NCBI RefSeq assembly: GCF_003144095.1 | Contig: NZ_NSKH01000018.1 | Coordinates: forward strand, 1,712,183-1,776,182 | Source: Streptomyces sp. ICBB 8177 | GTDB taxonomy: Bacteria > Actinomycetota > Actinomycetes > Streptomycetales > Streptomycetaceae | Reading direction: 5' to 3' | DNA length: 64,000 bases | Shown: positions 37-10,742 of the stretch, piece after piece | Layout of the letters: each line of letters begins with the position of its first letter | How positions within the stretch are numbered: position 1 is the first letter of the stretch | Program-made: the position numbers and the translations under genes | Notes under the pieces: generated by a model | Told to the model about the DNA's origin: nothing | Databases searched by the model: none | What the model saw: the letters and a program-made list of their open reading frames with translations, nothing else

Positions 37-77
37 TCTGGTGCGCACCAGAAGGTAAGCATCTGGTGCGCACCAGA
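37..77. promoter_or_regulatory. Twin 16-bp palindromic operator candidates
   Basis: TCTGGTGCGCACCAGA is a perfect palindrome present at 37-52 and again at 62-77, so the centres are 25 bp apart. A degenerate copy (12 of 16 positions) lies at 2187-2202, just upstream of the GntR-NUDIX gene. Paired palindromes of this size are typical operators for dimeric repressors such as GntR proteins. The controlled gene could be the rightward XRE gene or a leftward gene outside the window. Confidence 0.6.
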
Positions 78-161
78 GTCAAGCCCCTCGCTCATTCGGG
101 TGGTGGTTAGCCGCCTCGGTGCAATCCCAGGAGACCGGTACGAGCAGGGGGTTCGGTAGCC

Positions 162-260: not shown

Positions 261-1391
261 GTGAGCACGGGACTTCGAAGTGCGCGGACGGCGCGCGGCT
301 GGTCTCAGGAGCGACTGGTTCGCGAGATCGAGCGCTACGCCCGCCAGCACGTCACCGACGTTGCCTCGAATGCGAGTTTGCGGGTGTACGTGTCGGAATG
401 GGAGAACGGCAAGCGCAAGATCTCGGAGCACTACGCGACGATCCTGCGGCAACTCCTCGGCGTTACTGACGCGGAGTTGCGGGGCGCGCCAGTCATGGCA
501 GCGCTTCCGATGGCCGACGGATACAGCGACTTGCTCAGTCGGATCGACTCGGCCAGCAGCATTAGTGAGTCCATGGTGAAGGCGTTCAACGGTCAGACGG
601 AGCTACTCCGCACAATGGACCGCGAGAGGGGCGCGGCACTCCTCATCGATCAGATGACGGGGCATCTTTCCGCCCTGGAAGACGCATTGAGCTTCGCCGT
701 ACTGCCGAGTGCGCGTCGCCCGGTGGCGCTTGCGCTCGCTGGCGCGTCGACACTGGCCGCGTGGCAGGCCATCGACGCGGGAGCGGTCGAACGGGCATGG
801 CGCCAATACGAACTCGCGAAGCGGGCGGCGCGCGACGCTGAGGCACCGATGTACCTCGCCCATGCCATGGGAGAGCAGGCGTACGTGCTGTGCGAGGCTG
901 GCCGGCCGGCCCTCGGGCTTGAGCTGATTCGTGACGCACAACGAGTTCTCGGGCGGAACGGATCGCCGCGGCTTTGGGCGTGGCTCTACGCCGCTGAGGC
1001 AGAGCTGTGTGCGCATGCCAACATGCCAGACGAGTCTAGGCGGGCACTCGATGCGGCCATGGGCAAGGTTCCTTCGGGCCCTGAGGACCGAGACCCGGAC
1101 ATGTTGAGCATCTTCCTGAACGACGCCCATCTGGCCCGATGGTGCGGCAACGTGTTAAGCCTGCTGGGCGACGATGACGCGGTGACCAGCCTGTACCGCG
1201 CCCTCGAAGTTGCAGACCCAACCTTTGTCCGCGCACGCGCTGGAATCCACGCGGATCTGGCCCATGCGCACCTGACGCGGGCCGAGTACGACGACGCGAA
1301 CACCCACTTGCGGCAGGCGCGACTACTCGCGAACCGCACGGGTTCGGTGCGGCAGCGCCGTCGCATCGACCTACTCAGCGCGCGACTGTGA
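261..1391 (+). CDS. XRE-family regulator with helical repeat C-terminus
   Basis: The first ~75 residues form a helix-turn-helix of the XRE/lambda-repressor type (SARTARGWSQERLVREIE, then VYVSEWENGKRKIS as recognition and clamp region). The remaining ~300 residues are Ala- and Leu-rich helices that look like tetratricopeptide-type repeats, as in Streptomyces XRE regulators that sense small peptides or ligands; the ligand here is unknown. The GTG at 261 is preferred because the HTH begins right after it; TTG 195 and GTG 210 are in frame but lie in or next to the inverted repeat. Codon 1155-1157 is TTA, so translation should depend on the bldA leucyl-tRNA. Its 3' end overlaps the convergent GntR-NUDIX gene by 17 bp. 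Product 376 aa. Confidence 0.75.
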   Translation: MSTGLRSARTARGWSQERLVREIERYARQHVTDVASNASLRVYVSEWENGKRKISEHYATILRQLLGVTDAELRGAPVMAALPMADGYSDLLSRIDSASSISESMVKAFNGQTELLRTMDRERGAALLIDQMTGHLSALEDALSFAVLPSARRPVALALAGASTLAAWQAIDAGAVERAWRQYELAKRAARDAEAPMYLAHAMGEQAYVLCEAGRPALGLELIRDAQRVLGRNGSPRLWAWLYAAEAELCAHANMPDESRRALDAAMGKVPSGPEDRDPDMLSIFLNDAHLARWCGNVLSLLGDDDAVTSLYRALEVADPTFVRARAGIHADLAHAHLTRAEYDDANTHLRQARLLANRTGSVRQRRRIDLLSARL

Positions 1392-2163
1392 CCCCCTGCG
1401 CACGTCGGCTTGCCAAGATGTGTAGCAGGGCAACGAGGGTGCCGGACCCCATCAGCTCACCGCGGGCCATGAGCCCTGGAATGTCAGCCAGGGGTATCCA
1501 TTCAATGTGGCCGGCCTCTTCCAAGTCTGTCGGTGAACCGACCTTCTCGGCGCCGTGGCCTACGAAGATCTCGTGAGGCGAGTCGACCATGCCCACCATG
1601 GGCTGATAGGTCACCACGTGCTCTAGCGACTTTGGCCGCCACCCGGTTTCCTCGACGACCTCGCGTATCGCCGTCTCTGTCGTGTCCTCCCCGTCCTCGA
1701 CGATGCCGCCGGGGAGCTCCCAGCCGAATTGCTGCGGCACGAATCGGTACCGCCACATCATGAGCACGCGGTCCTGATCGTCCAGAACGGCAGTCACGGC
1801 CACGCGGTGGAGCTTCACCACGTGGTGCTCAAACGGCTCCATGCCGGGCGGCTCTACGTCCCAGAGCTGAAGCTTGACCCACCGGTTGTCGTATAGGTCG
1901 CGCTCGCCATGGATGCGCCACGGCTTCAGTCCTTCCGGCCGCTCGACGCTCACCGCACCCGGCACCCGGTACGAGCTCCGTCCACGTACCTCCAGCGCGC
2001 CCTCGGAGACGAGGCGCGCGAGAACTTGCCGAAGCGCTGTCCGGCCGATGCCCAGCTCTTCGACGAGCGTGCGCTCTGAGGGGAACTTGTCCCCGGCGGT
2101 GTACACGCCAGCAGTGAGCCGTGCGTGAAGCGTCTCGTAGACCTTGGTCGTCTTCGGTCCCAT
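1375..2163 (-). CDS. GntR-type DNA-binding domain fused to a NUDIX hydrolase domain
   Basis: A 262-residue two-domain protein. Residues 1-67 form a GntR winged helix (KVYETLHARL, FPSERTLVEELGIGRTALRQ, LVSEGALEVRGRSSYRV). Residues ~95-250 are a NUDIX fold most like ADP-ribose pyrophosphatases. The complete Nudix box is at 152-174 (PGGIVEDGED then REVVEETGW), with all Glu ligands present. ATG 2163 is chosen because the HTH starts there and GGAGAG precedes it; a 310-aa reading from 2307 would add an unrelated sequence crossing a palindrome. A degenerate operator (2187-2202) lies 24 bases upstream, consistent with autoregulation. In pSAM2, the GntR protein KorSA represses transfer and the NUDIX protein Pif gives conjugal immunity; a fusion doing both is inference. 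Confidence 0.8.
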   Translation of the reverse strand: MGPKTTKVYETLHARLTAGVYTAGDKFPSERTLVEELGIGRTALRQVLARLVSEGALEVRGRSSYRVPGAVSVERPEGLKPWRIHGERDLYDNRWVKLQLWDVEPPGMEPFEHHVVKLHRVAVTAVLDDQDRVLMMWRYRFVPQQFGWELPGGIVEDGEDTTETAIREVVEETGWRPKSLEHVVTYQPMVGMVDSPHEIFVGHGAEKVGSPTDLEEAGHIEWIPLADIPGLMARGELMGSGTLVALLHILASRRAQGVTVAR

Positions 2164-2186: not shown

Positions 2187-2202
2187 TGCGGTGCGTACCA
2201 GC
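2187..2202. promoter_or_regulatory. Degenerate operator copy upstream of GntR-NUDIX gene
   Basis: TGCGGTGCGTACCAGC matches 12 of 16 positions of the two palindromes at 37-77, including the core GGTGCG(C/T)ACCAG. It lies 24 to 39 bases upstream of the ATG at 2163, where a repressor would block the promoter. Confidence 0.45.
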
Positions 2203-2435: not shown

Positions 2436-3335
2436 TCAGGTCTCGAATAGTCCATCCTGTGACTCTGCAACGCGGACAAACCGGTACTCCGTCGAGCGTT
2501 CTCGCCCAAGCTGATCCTTCTTCTTTACGACTTCAATGAGGAAGGAAACCGGCATCCCAAGTTCAAGGTGCATTTCCATCAAGTTATCGGGTTCGATGTG
2601 TACATCATATGCTTTAGATTGACGGGTGGTACCGGTTTTAACCTTCACGACGCCCGACATGCGGAGTTCCGTGATCGTGCCCGCGACCGCTAGGCGGGAT
2701 CGATAAGTCATTAGTTCACGCAGGCTGCGCACGTAACTCTTGCCGCGACTCGAAAGGTTGGAGGATCGAACGGTGCCGTCCACGCTGTGCCAGCGCATTT
2801 CCATGGACAGATCGAATTTATCTAGGGCTTCTACGACGCCGTCCAGGCCAGGGATTATGCGTTCCCATTGACGTACGTCCTGCTCATTTTCGACTGCGTT
2901 GACAAGCTTAAGCAGGTCGCGCATTGCGGGGTCCGCAGGCGAAGAATCAACCCTGCCTAGGCCGCCTTCCTCTTCGCTATTCTCAACCTTGGGGCGGACG
3001 TGCAACACCGTACTTCCGTGAGACAGGCCAGTTAGCTCCAATTCCACGTCTTTCCGTGCCGCAGCGGCAACCCCATCGCGGAGGGGTTTAAGGAGTGCAT
3101 CACCGACGCGAAAATCCAGCACTCCTCGTTCGGCCACTTCGCCTCGTAGTCGGACTATCAGCTCTTCCGAAAGGGTGGCCTGGGGGTCGTAGTGGCGGGC
3201 CGCTTCCAGCCAATGTCGCCGCAACTCCTCTTCATATGCGTCGTCGCTGGATGGGGGGTCTGCCAGTTCAGCGAAGTATCGGCTGTTTGACTCGCGGTTA
3301 CGCTCTAGAGCACGTTCACGCCAGCTCGTGCTCAT
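2436..3335 (-). CDS. Unknown protein, second gene of a two-gene accessory operon
   Basis: A 299-residue protein I do not recognise. The first ~55 residues are charged and helical. The segment around residues 85-115 alternates hydrophobic residues (ELELTGLSHGSTVLHVRPK). The C-terminal third looks all-beta (VAGTITELRMSGVVKVKTG, then MPVSFLIEVVKKKD), like a small barrel. No signal peptide or membrane segment is seen. The ATG overlaps the stop of the upstream gene by 4 bases (ATGA) and has GGAGGTGA in front, so the two are translationally coupled. Codons such as AAA, CTA, TTT and GTT are frequent, unlike the rest of the window, which supports horizontal origin. It could be the partner or antitoxin of the upstream nucleotidyltransferase-like protein. 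Confidence 0.6.
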   Translation of the reverse strand: MSTSWRERALERNRESNSRYFAELADPPSSDDAYEEELRRHWLEAARHYDPQATLSEELIVRLRGEVAERGVLDFRVGDALLKPLRDGVAAAARKDVELELTGLSHGSTVLHVRPKVENSEEEGGLGRVDSSPADPAMRDLLKLVNAVENEQDVRQWERIIPGLDGVVEALDKFDLSMEMRWHSVDGTVRSSNLSSRGKSYVRSLRELMTYRSRLAVAGTITELRMSGVVKVKTGTTRQSKAYDVHIEPDNLMEMHLELGMPVSFLIEVVKKKDQLGRERSTEYRFVRVAESQDGLFET

Positions 3336-3913
3336 AGGGTCACCTCCAGGTAGCCGCGCCGTGGTGCCGCACTCTCGATGGTGGGCTCACTCTTGTCTAC
3401 CCCAGAGGTCCGACAGCGCTGCCACCAGTCATCCCACGCCCCTCTCTCCCGAAGGTACGCCTGATCCTCCGCATCCAAACGCTCGGCGCGGAAGACGGAG
3501 ACGATCGGCCTGTAACGCACGGGAAGTGGTGACACTCCGAACTCGTCCAGCCGGGCCTCCCGATTGAACGCGGAGAGTAGCCAACGACTTCCGGGGAGTC
3601 CCTTCATGGCCGAAGCCGCTCGGTCATCGATCAAGACTGTGAGATCGATGTTCTGGGGGTTCACCTTCGTGCTGACGTAGCTCCCGCCCAGCCAGATGGC
3701 ATGGACCAAGGAGACGTCGCCCACGTCCTCACGGTGACGTTCTTCGAGCTCAAAGAAACGGCTGAGGTAGCTCTCAAGGCCGGTCCAGAGTCGAGCCCTG
3801 GTCTCCGAGTCTTTGAAGATCAGGTCCTTGACCAGCAGTTTCTCAGCATTCTCCGGGCTGAGCCTGTACCTGCCGGGCCGTAGAAACCCGTCGTCCCCCC
3901 ACTCAGGAATCAC
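3332..3913 (-). CDS. Nucleotidyltransferase-like protein (DUF6932-like)
   Basis: A 193-residue protein if the GTG at 3913 is used; GGGGAGGGG sits 4 bases upstream and the family usually starts with an IPEW/DGFLRPGRY segment. A longer frame from 4108 runs into the region before the tRNA fragment and is unlikely. The nucleotidyltransferase signature follows a beta strand: AIWLGGSYVSTKVNPQNIDL. The glycine-serine pair is intact, but the first acid of the usual D-x-D reads Asn (N-I-D), so activity is uncertain. Family members are often small stand-alone nucleotidyltransferases of the toxin or defence type. It is the first gene of the operon with the downstream unknown gene. Confidence 0.6.
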   Translation of the reverse strand: MIPEWGDDGFLRPGRYRLSPENAEKLLVKDLIFKDSETRARLWTGLESYLSRFFELEERHREDVGDVSLVHAIWLGGSYVSTKVNPQNIDLTVLIDDRAASAMKGLPGSRWLLSAFNREARLDEFGVSPLPVRYRPIVSVFRAERLDAEDQAYLRERGAWDDWWQRCRTSGVDKSEPTIESAAPRRGYLEVTL

Positions 3914-4167
3914 GCGCCCCTCCCCTGAGCATGCGTCCGCCGACTGGCACATGATCCCGGCTGTGCATGTATCGGGCAAGGGCAGCCGTCGTAGCGCGGT
4001 GACCGGTGCCGTTGTTGTCTGTGTGGGGCCAAAGAGCGTGGCTGGGGAGCGGCCCGGCGTACTGGCGAGGCGGGCCGCTCTGGACGAGGCGTGGACGATC
4101 AGAGGCAACTTCGACGCCAGACCTACTGTTTTTACAGGTCATCAGCAGTCGCGAGGGGAGAACAAGG

Positions 4168-4222
4168 GCAGACTGTAAATCTGCCGGCTCAGCCTACCCA
4201 GGTTCGAACCCTGGCGCCGCCA
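4168..4222 (+). other. 3' fragment of tRNA-Tyr (attachment site)
   Basis: The sequence begins with a good anticodon arm (GCAGA, loop CTGTAAA, TCTGC; anticodon GTA at 4175-4177). A long variable arm, a complete T arm (CCAGG TTCGAAC CCTGG, 4198-4214) and the 3' acceptor strand CGCCGCC plus A (4215-4222) follow. The matching 5' strand GGCGGCG and the D arm are absent upstream, so it cannot make a tRNA. This is what remains on the chromosomal side when an element integrates into the 3' half of a tRNA gene. The crossover core probably starts near the anticodon arm. Confidence 0.8.
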
Positions 4223-4232
4223 CACGGACGAC

Positions 4233-9752: not shown

Positions 9753-10082
9753 GCCCCGCAGTCTTCGGCACGCGAGAGGGGGGATCGCGCCGATCGGCGG
9801 AAGGGTAAGGGTTTTTGAAGGAATTTCTCATCGTGCCGATAGCAACGCTTTAACCGCCTGGAGGTGGTCTTTAGACGCGGGGGTGCGGACCATTACCCGC
9901 GGCGCACGGCGCAACGGAAACCGGACGCGAGGCCGGAAATGGCCGCGGTGTGGCCCTTCCGTGTTCTTCTTCACGCTTACGGGTCATGGCTCACACATGA
10001 CGGCCGGCCCCTGGATCGCGCGGGCGCGCTGGATCGGCCGTTCCGGCGGCGCTTGTCGGTGCTCGGGCGTACGGTCGTAACC
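9753..10082. other. Divergent promoter region, no gene seen
   Basis: 330 bases between the leftward glycosyltransferase and the rightward NAD(P)-binding protein. An A/T-richer patch near 9806-9855 (GTTTTTGAAGGAATTTCTC, GCTTTAACC) probably contains the glycosyltransferase promoter. Open frames through it have no start signals. Confidence 0.5.
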
Positions 10083-10742
10083 ATGCGTACGGTGATCGCC
10101 GGAGGACACGGAAAGATCGCGCTGCGGCTGGAGACGCTGCTGAGCACGCGCGGTGACGAGGTGGCAGGCCTGATCCGCCGCCCGGAGCAGGCGGCCGACC
10201 TGCGCGAGCGGGGTGCCGAGCCGATCGTCTGCGACCTGGAGCGGGCGTCGGTGGACGAGGTCGCCGGCCATCTGCGCGGCGCCGACGCCGTGGTCTTCGC
10301 GGCGGGCGCGGGCCCCGGCAGCGGCGTCGACCGCAAGAGGACGGTGGACCACGCGGCGGCGGTGCTGTTCGCCGACGCGGCCGAGCGGGCCGGAGTACGC
10401 CGCTACGTGATCGTCTCCTCGATGGGCGCCGACAGCGAGCCGCCGCCCGGCACCGACCCGGTCTTCGCCGAGTACCTGCGGGCCAAGCGGGCGGCCGACG
10501 AGGACATCAAGGCGAGGCCGGGACTGGACTGGACGGTGCTGCGCCCCGGCGCGCTCACCGATGACGCGGGCACCGGCTTCGTCGCTCTGGCCGAGCACAC
10601 CGGACGCGGCTCGGTGCCGAGGGACGACGTGGCGGCCGTGCTGGCCGCGCTGCTCGCCGAGCCCGGCACGGCGGGCCGCACGCTGGAGCTGATCGGCGGT
10701 CCGGTCCCCGTGATCGAGGCGGTCAAGGCCGCGGCGGCCTGA
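10083..10742 (+). CDS. NAD(P)-binding atypical short-chain dehydrogenase-like protein
   Basis: 219 residues with a Rossmann fold of the YwnB/NmrA-like group. It has a start strand with GGHGKIALRL as the dinucleotide loop, DAVVFAAGAGPGSG after the fourth strand, VSSMGAD, and EYLRAKRAADEDIKA in place of the classic Tyr-x3-Lys. These proteins usually bind NADP and often act as oxidoreductases or redox sensors with unknown substrates. ATG 10083 is chosen because the fold begins there; the frame is open further upstream but without signals. No clear Shine-Dalgarno precedes it, so it may be leaderless. It stands alone, convergent with the amidohydrolase gene. Confidence 0.8.
   Translation: MRTVIAGGHGKIALRLETLLSTRGDEVAGLIRRPEQAADLRERGAEPIVCDLERASVDEVAGHLRGADAVVFAAGAGPGSGVDRKRTVDHAAAVLFADAAERAGVRRYVIVSSMGADSEPPPGTDPVFAEYLRAKRAADEDIKARPGLDWTVLRPGALTDDAGTGFVALAEHTGRGSVPRDDVAAVLAALLAEPGTAGRTLELIGGPVPVIEAVKAAAA

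Follow-up and report, generated by a model that had tools for sequence, protein, structure and literature searches.

A gene near the start of a 64,000-nucleotide stretch of Streptomyces sp. ICBB 8177 (contig NZ_NSKH01000018.1, positions 1,712,183 to 1,776,182; the whole stretch is called the window below) encodes a 262-amino-acid (262-aa) protein that joins a GntR winged helix to a NUDIX domain. We propose that this GntR-NUDIX protein acts as transfer/replication repressor for an actinomycete integrative and conjugative element (AICE) that is SLP1-like. It would do there what KorSA does in pSAM2-type elements and use NUDIX, instead of UTRA, as its dimerization and effector domain. On comparative sequence evidence, we place the probability of this reading at roughly 80%. 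The gene and its domains are laid out as follows.

1375 to 2163, minus strand: GntR-NUDIX gene, 262-aa product, ATG at 2163, stop codon at 1375 to 1377
1963 to 2148, minus strand: GntR winged helix, aa 6 to 67 (Pfam PF00392, E value 9e-17)
1480 to 1809, minus strand: NUDIX domain, aa 119 to 228, ADP-ribose pyrophosphatase-like fold (Pfam PF00293, E value 2e-18)
1639 to 1707, minus strand: Nudix box, aa 153 to 175, complete

An earlier note on this DNA had described a complete GntR winged helix and a complete Nudix box in this one protein, and the domain searches agree: the GntR domain scored 60.9 bits against a Pfam cutoff of 27, and the NUDIX domain scored 67 bits against a cutoff of 21.1.

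A double palindrome accompanies the gene

The candidate operators, the promoters beside them, and the neighboring regulator gene are the following.

62 to 77, no strand: candidate operator O1, TCTGGTGCGCACCAGA, between the -35 and -10 of a left-reading promoter
37 to 52, no strand: candidate operator O2, same 16 bp as O1, directly after the -10
53 to 82, minus strand: promoter toward the off-window pra/transfer side, -35 TTGACT at 77 to 82, -10 TTACCT at 53 to 58, 18-bp spacer
2189 to 2200, minus strand: candidate operator O3, TGGTACGCACCG, at the GntR-NUDIX promoter, with a -10-like TACGCT at 2200 to 2205
261 to 1391, plus strand: convergent gene for an XRE-TPR regulator, a TPR protein of the NsdA family; the GntR-NUDIX gene is overlapped at its 3' end

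The 16-bp palindrome named in the earlier note is present twice and exactly, as O1 and O2. Within the window alone it is weak evidence, since at least two matches, with as many as three mismatches allowed, turned up in 6 of 100 shuffled versions; its weight comes from relatives. These were sought in 394 Streptomycetaceae genomes, with the best few candidates scored per genome, and in a collection of genome contigs. Closest study went to 82 loci: the best 80 of 296 relatives confirmed in the contig collection (a set that leans to close relatives), the present locus, and that of S. formicae. Among the 80, 64 belong to clade A (at least 78% identity) and 16 to clade B.

In 74 of 79 loci, the 300 bp that follow the XRE-TPR start on its outer side contained two exact copies of the 12-mer TGGTGCGCACCA; three loci had one site and two had none (the remaining loci, L107, L109, and L119, lack this stretch). 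The start-to-start distance was 24 or 25 in 72 of the 74, and the 12-mer had one further occurrence in 1.54 Mb, in the S. formicae tandem copy. In 76 of 77 loci the first palindrome was immediately preceded by TTGAC, which places O1 between the -35 and the likely -10, with O2 after it; TTACCT at 53 to 58 is our best guess at this -10.

We also searched the 394 genomes for the double site alone. It was found at 54 places in 53 genomes, and a reversed control was found at none. All but one of these places lie 1,270 to 1,374 bp 3' of a GntR-NUDIX family gene; at the 54th (genome G291), a contig end intervenes. Among the matches listed, the exact pair was present in 52 of the 57 genomes with a full-length gene, and among the 337 remaining genomes it was present only in G352, which carries GntR and NUDIX in split form and in which TGGTGCGAACCA precedes the stand-alone GntR gene. 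Gene and double site thus occur together almost one to one across the genomes compared. A single 12-mer occurred at seven places in the Streptomyces sp. ICBB 8177 genome, five of them outside the window, versus one for the reversed control.

The genes on the operator side differ between clades. A pra-family gene starts ~0.3 to 0.36 kb from the XRE-TPR start in 13 of the 16 clade B loci and in S. formicae, and the copies of S. formicae and L123 were assigned to the SCO3933 family by NCBIfam. In clade A, the O1/O2 promoter faces other genes, and an FtsK gene like the one on contig C9 (described below) lies further along in at least 29 loci. For the O3 position, we took the 12-mer closest to the consensus in the 120 bp that precede the GntR-NUDIX gene: it had one mismatch in 46 of the 82 loci and two in 14; the variant is mostly TGGTACGCACCA at -37, and clade B is mostly without a site of this type.

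Of the 17 loci with less than 78% identity, 10 (L123, L125, L129, L131, L134, L135, L136, L138, L139, and L140) carry a different palindrome, of the type ACTCACGTGAGT (at most one mismatch), 71 to 83 bp upstream of the start of GntR-NUDIX. Phage phiC31 (L194) carries it 15 times exactly. It may be the site of the phiC31 repressor; if so, control of the phage and control of the element would be tied together. The N-terminal part of phiC31 gp26 (L020:2947-3471) is 57% identical to the GntR domain of the 262-aa protein over 74 aa, and the tblastn match stops short of the NUDIX part. No TGGT-N4-ACCA site was found in the 6.2 kb around gp26.

Comparison with KorSA and Pif loci

According to PMC8584621, SCO3933 is a Pra homolog, and the region between SCO3932 and SCO3933 is bound by the KorSA-like SCO3932. 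The 262-aa protein has the GntR DNA-binding domain expected of KorSA and lacks the UTRA C-terminal domain, with NUDIX in its place; in relatives, candidate sites stand at both promoters, on the pra side and at the gene's own. At the 81 fusion loci, tblastn with three GntR-UTRA proteins and the GntR domain of the 262-aa protein gave no further GntR gene on the side of the element, S. formicae giving only its tandem copy. These loci end at 10 kb or less, so this absence, though strong, is incomplete. In 9 of the 82 loci, GntR matches lay on the att/chromosome side and were not counted as element genes. The transfer-repression half of the earlier note's suggestion gains strong comparative support from the co-occurrence of gene and double site, from the lack of a separate KorSA-like gene at the fusion loci, and from the site beside pra-family genes in 13 of 16 clade B loci and S. 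formicae, the place where SCO3932 is reported to bind.

That note had also raised the alternative of a fused KorSA-Pif protein. In its full sense, this would mean repression together with a NUDIX activity that blocks redundant transfer in the recipient, and Pif of pSAM2 is described in PMC3218068 as a NUDIX protein that acts in the recipient. The 262-aa protein shares with Pif an AICE-borne NUDIX domain. Among elements with a solo NUDIX gene (L172 to L176), each of the four sampled for GntR-UTRA (L172, L174, L175, and L176, L173 being cut by its contig) encodes a separate GntR-UTRA, KorSA-like protein. In L174 and L176 this gene diverges from an SCO3933-family gene, as SCO3932 does; the candidate pra genes of L172 and L175 had no NCBIfam family match. 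The NUDIX gene converges with an XRE-TPR gene in L172, L174, and L176, as the GntR-NUDIX gene does here, and no XRE-TPR match was found in L175. No pSAM2 record was among the matches listed in the sequence collections searched. The fusion fits these gene layouts, and an immunity role for the GntR-NUDIX protein is possible. Repression of transfer genes alone, however, might give apparent immunity, and we hold the fusion in its full sense as a tentative possibility.

The NUDIX domain is probably more than a scaffold

The Nudix box follows the formula G-x5-E-x7-RE-x2-EE-x-G. The seven letters of this signature do not vary among 76 aligned relatives drawn from the 82 loci, nor in a 34-row alignment that includes viral homologs (34 of 40 rows were used; L142, L144, L151, L153, L155, and L159 were dropped). 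That the signature is kept at 100% while other box positions vary freely speaks for a domain that is still catalytic and against a dead scaffold.

An AlphaFold2 model of the 262-aa protein from the 34-row alignment had a mean pLDDT (predicted local distance difference test score) of 89.8 and a pTM (predicted template modeling score) of 0.73. Foldseek and VIA-align 2 placed the NUDIX part among ADP-ribose and nucleoside diphosphate (NDP)-sugar pyrophosphatases, the best match having a Z score of 21.7 and a root mean square deviation of 2.0 with 178 residues aligned. By phmmer, the NUDIX part matched 8wv3 (E value 1e-15) and MT-ADPRase 1mk1 (E value 3e-12). Both fold and box are thus those of an ADP-ribose pyrophosphatase-like NUDIX hydrolase. 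All rows of the fold search fall on the NUDIX part (aa 74 to 257), so that the GntR part rests on Pfam and phmmer.

Given the ADP-ribose pyrophosphatase fold and the intact box, it is plausible that the NUDIX domain senses a nucleotide-type ligand. ADP-ribose pyrophosphatases are dimers, and dimerization alone would suit a repressor; the domain might then be a dimerization scaffold without a ligand response. This we consider unlikely in view of the invariance of the box letters in both alignments.

Which protein would bind the double palindrome

The XRE-TPR gene brings a further candidate binder and a repeat of its own.

161 to 197, no strand: inverted repeat with GTTAA/TTAAC arms, candidate XRE-TPR site

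A match to XRE-TPR was found in 80 of the 82 loci, convergent with the GntR-NUDIX gene in every one. It is the gene nearest the double site and accompanies the site in nearly all loci, and its helix-turn-helix (HTH) is highly conserved; it could therefore be argued that the XRE-TPR protein binds the double palindrome and that GntR-NUDIX has another target. Conservation of the HTH does not decide the binder, because the recognition regions of GntR and XRE are both conserved. We surveyed near-full-length XRE-TPR genes with at least 63% identity, and found at least 60 places among the best few candidates per genome. At three of the loci (L168, L170, and L171; 63% XRE-TPR identity), the neighbor is a GntR-less NUDIX protein, 70 to 73% identical. 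The 500 bp beyond the XRE-TPR start at these loci held no double-site match at up to two mismatches, with scattered single matches elsewhere, and the GTTAA-type repeat near the XRE-TPR start persisted. Operator-bearing loci also reach down to 63% XRE-TPR identity, so divergence of XRE-TPR does not explain the loss of the site. GTTAA and/or TTAAC was found within 150 bp in 81 of 83 loci. The inverted repeat at 161 to 197 is likely to be the XRE-TPR protein's own site.

The site itself also points to GntR-NUDIX. Most close relatives carry an operator variant at the GntR-NUDIX promoter, and the geometry of the palindrome, GG-N6-CC, is that of a GntR site. As described in PMC4333415, the NagR dre palindrome has the same spacing and its guanines are read by Arg38 and Arg48, and Arg35 and Arg45 of FadR read guanines likewise. 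R31 and R41 of the GntR head align with the two NagR arginines and are invariant in the 76 relatives, in which residues 39 to 50 have a mean identity of 98%, versus 81% for the whole domain. We therefore disfavor the XRE-TPR protein as the binder of the double palindrome and regard this alternative as improbable.

Family distribution and points against the repressor reading

The earlier note had proposed a search for the two-domain architecture, which turned out to be widespread: at least 60 full-length relatives with 62 to 100% identity were present in at least 57 of the 394 genomes (among the matches listed), and the architecture is thus not due to chance. An AICE gene marker was seen in 52 of the loci of the 80 best relatives, and a marker or tRNA-Tyr remnant in 61, so homologs are not confined to nonmobile contexts, the outcome that the earlier note had named as a refutation; the remnant itself was found in 30 of the 81 other loci searched. 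The 27.8-kb S. formicae record consists of such an element repeated head to tail, and the two gene copies annotated in it are 69.8% identical to the 262-aa protein. That the protein is an ordinary NUDIX enzyme with an incidental HTH, outside element control, is far-fetched: relatives with NUDIX only are common (some match at an E value of 1e-30 or better in 335 of 394 genomes) and 19 of the 80 loci have neither marker nor remnant in the DNA examined, against which stand the fixed gene pair, the linked operators, and the att sites.

Across relatives, the GntR head occurs fused, split, doubled, or absent. In the split form (G352, L167, ~9777 to 10520, plus strand), a 76-aa stand-alone GntR protein overlaps the start of the NUDIX gene. 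A single 376-aa open reading frame (ORF) in L177 (9296 to 10426, plus strand) has two GntR matches followed by a NUDIX domain. In a tree that bears on fusion versus loss of the head, the GntR-less loci L168 to L171 and the fused proteins share an open fork, and the bootstrap had not settled; L142, without an intact ORF, was labeled fused by assumption, and L178, a remnant, was counted as solo.

Several observations weigh against the repressor reading. The exact pair is absent from five genomes with a full-length gene. In G181 and G013, one site is exact and the other has a single mismatch; G189 has one site at one gene copy and none at the second, for which XRE-TPR gave no match; G345 lacks the DNA that would hold the -35, O1, the -10, and half of O2; and G141 has nearby only a 27%-identical TPR gene. 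A viral contig (L141:7977-8786, plus strand) has a 67%-identical GntR-NUDIX gene right beside an apparent tRNA gene, and its DNA showed neither an XRE-TPR match nor a double site. The ACTCACGTGAGT palindrome replaces a clear O3 in 10 loci (9 of clade B below 76% identity and L123 at 76%). The three GntR-less loci form one clade with no transfer genes seen nearby, and the XRE-TPR HTH is conserved as well as the GntR head. In the present genome, the gene driven by the O1/O2 promoter lies beyond the contig gap. Lastly, ADP-ribose or a relative as the ligand is a guess from the fold.

The host element and its neighboring genes

Beyond the GntR-NUDIX gene, the window holds the end of the element and two cargo genes.

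4168 to 4228, plus strand: attR, which matches the tRNA-Tyr gene of contig C10 in its 3' part, all 61 bp being identical
2436 to 3335, minus strand: 299-aa ORF, element cargo
3332 to 4108, minus strand: 258-aa ORF with DUF6932 (PF22014), element cargo, start codon uncertain

The position of the protein at the end of an integrated element, as claimed in the earlier note, is borne out by the attR. The 299-aa ORF had no match in Pfam, NCBIfam, or PADLOC. The DUF6932 protein, whose gene overlaps that of the 299-aa ORF, had a weak match to the PADLOC candidate PDC-M63A (E value 1e-9).

Position 1 of the window directly follows 10 N in the scaffold, and this gap means that the element is broken over contigs. 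The left contig neighbors, which we take to be RNase J, dapA, and thyX, were rejected as the element's flank, the 10 N standing between them and the window. On contig C10, an intact tRNA-Tyr gene is followed, in the direction of the contig start, by a tyrosine integrase gene, a small xis-like ORF (named by its place, without a family match), and a D5/DUF5906 replication gene, with which the contig ends on that side; the gene preceding tRNA-Tyr is presumably yajQ-like. The 9.1-kb contig C9 holds DUF2637, GGDEF, a cytosine methylase fragment, and an FtsK-like gene whose product scored 23.6 bits, just below the Pfam cutoff of 24. The GGDEF (diguanylate cyclase-type) gene and the methylase fragment, at 1763 to 2416 and 2742 to 3395 of C9 (L058), stand beside the FtsK-like gene, and GGDEF matches recur in 14 of the 82 loci. 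In three relatives (L065, L075, and L098), the DUF2637, GGDEF, and FtsK genes share one contig with GntR-NUDIX.

An integrase, a Rep gene, an FtsK-type Tra gene, and tRNA integration, which together define an AICE, are all present, with C10, C9, and the window joined by inference only. Our conclusion is that the attR end in the window belongs to an AICE whose sequence is divided in the assembly, and that the rest of this element would lie on other contigs. SLP1 integrates at tRNA-Tyr, and we call the element SLP1-like because of its tRNA-Tyr site and gene content.

Proposed mechanism and its implications

A GntR-NUDIX dimer would bind O1 and O2, reading their GG-N6-CC with R31 and R41, and would block RNA polymerase so that pra/tra are kept silent. 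Through O3, the repressor may limit its own synthesis. It would let go when the NUDIX domain binds or hydrolyzes a nucleoside diphosphate compound, of which ADP-ribose or a relative would be the most likely. A more elaborate and rather doubtful version is a self-resetting gate, in which a catalytic repressor binds a signal derived from nicotinamide adenine dinucleotide (NAD), frees the transfer promoter, destroys the signal, and recloses, the same enzyme giving conjugal immunity. If true, conjugation would be wired to the NAD/ADP-ribose state of the host via one fused KorSA-Pif protein.

No KorSA effector had been identified (PMC8584621) and the mechanism of Pif immunity was called unknown (PMC3218068). 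With a widespread family that joins both kinds of domain and has candidate operators located to single-base precision, one purified protein and short DNA probes would be enough to test both questions. If NUDIX gates DNA binding, this would name the class of metabolite by which conjugation is controlled in many antibiotic-producing bacteria and would add NUDIX to the effector domains of GntR repressors.

Comparison with known systems

NrtR, an ADP-ribose-responsive NUDIX repressor, likewise combines NUDIX and a winged helix in one protein. In NrtR the NUDIX domain comes first; the 262-aa protein has the reverse order and scored 22.2 bits against the NrtR family cutoff of 400 (NCBIfam NF050029), which sets it outside that family. 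It shares its GntR head with NagR/DasR and FadR, which have other effector domains, and its GG-N6-CC site geometry with NagR (PMC4333415).

A gene of Streptomyces ICE01 also combines an HTH and a nudix domain on an integrated element. In PMC9513070 it is given one sentence, with data not shown and a likeness to cI repressors, and that description carries no GntR assignment, operator, or mechanism. Beyond this sentence, our searches of openly licensed papers brought up nothing that we recognized as a GntR-NUDIX repressor of AICEs.

Like Pif of pSAM2, the protein is a NUDIX protein of an AICE, although Pif is described as a separate NUDIX protein (PMC3218068). With KorSA and SCO3932 (PMC8584621) it shares a GntR head, a proposed place as element regulator, and, in relatives, candidate sites beside pra and at its own promoter. 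It differs from them in having NUDIX instead of UTRA, in its palindrome TGGTGCGCACCA rather than the SCO3932 motif, and in that its gene adjoins an XRE-TPR partner and not pra directly. KorSA and Pif are known as separate proteins, and GntR-NUDIX would be KorSA-like in its working, though not KorSA by domain definition.

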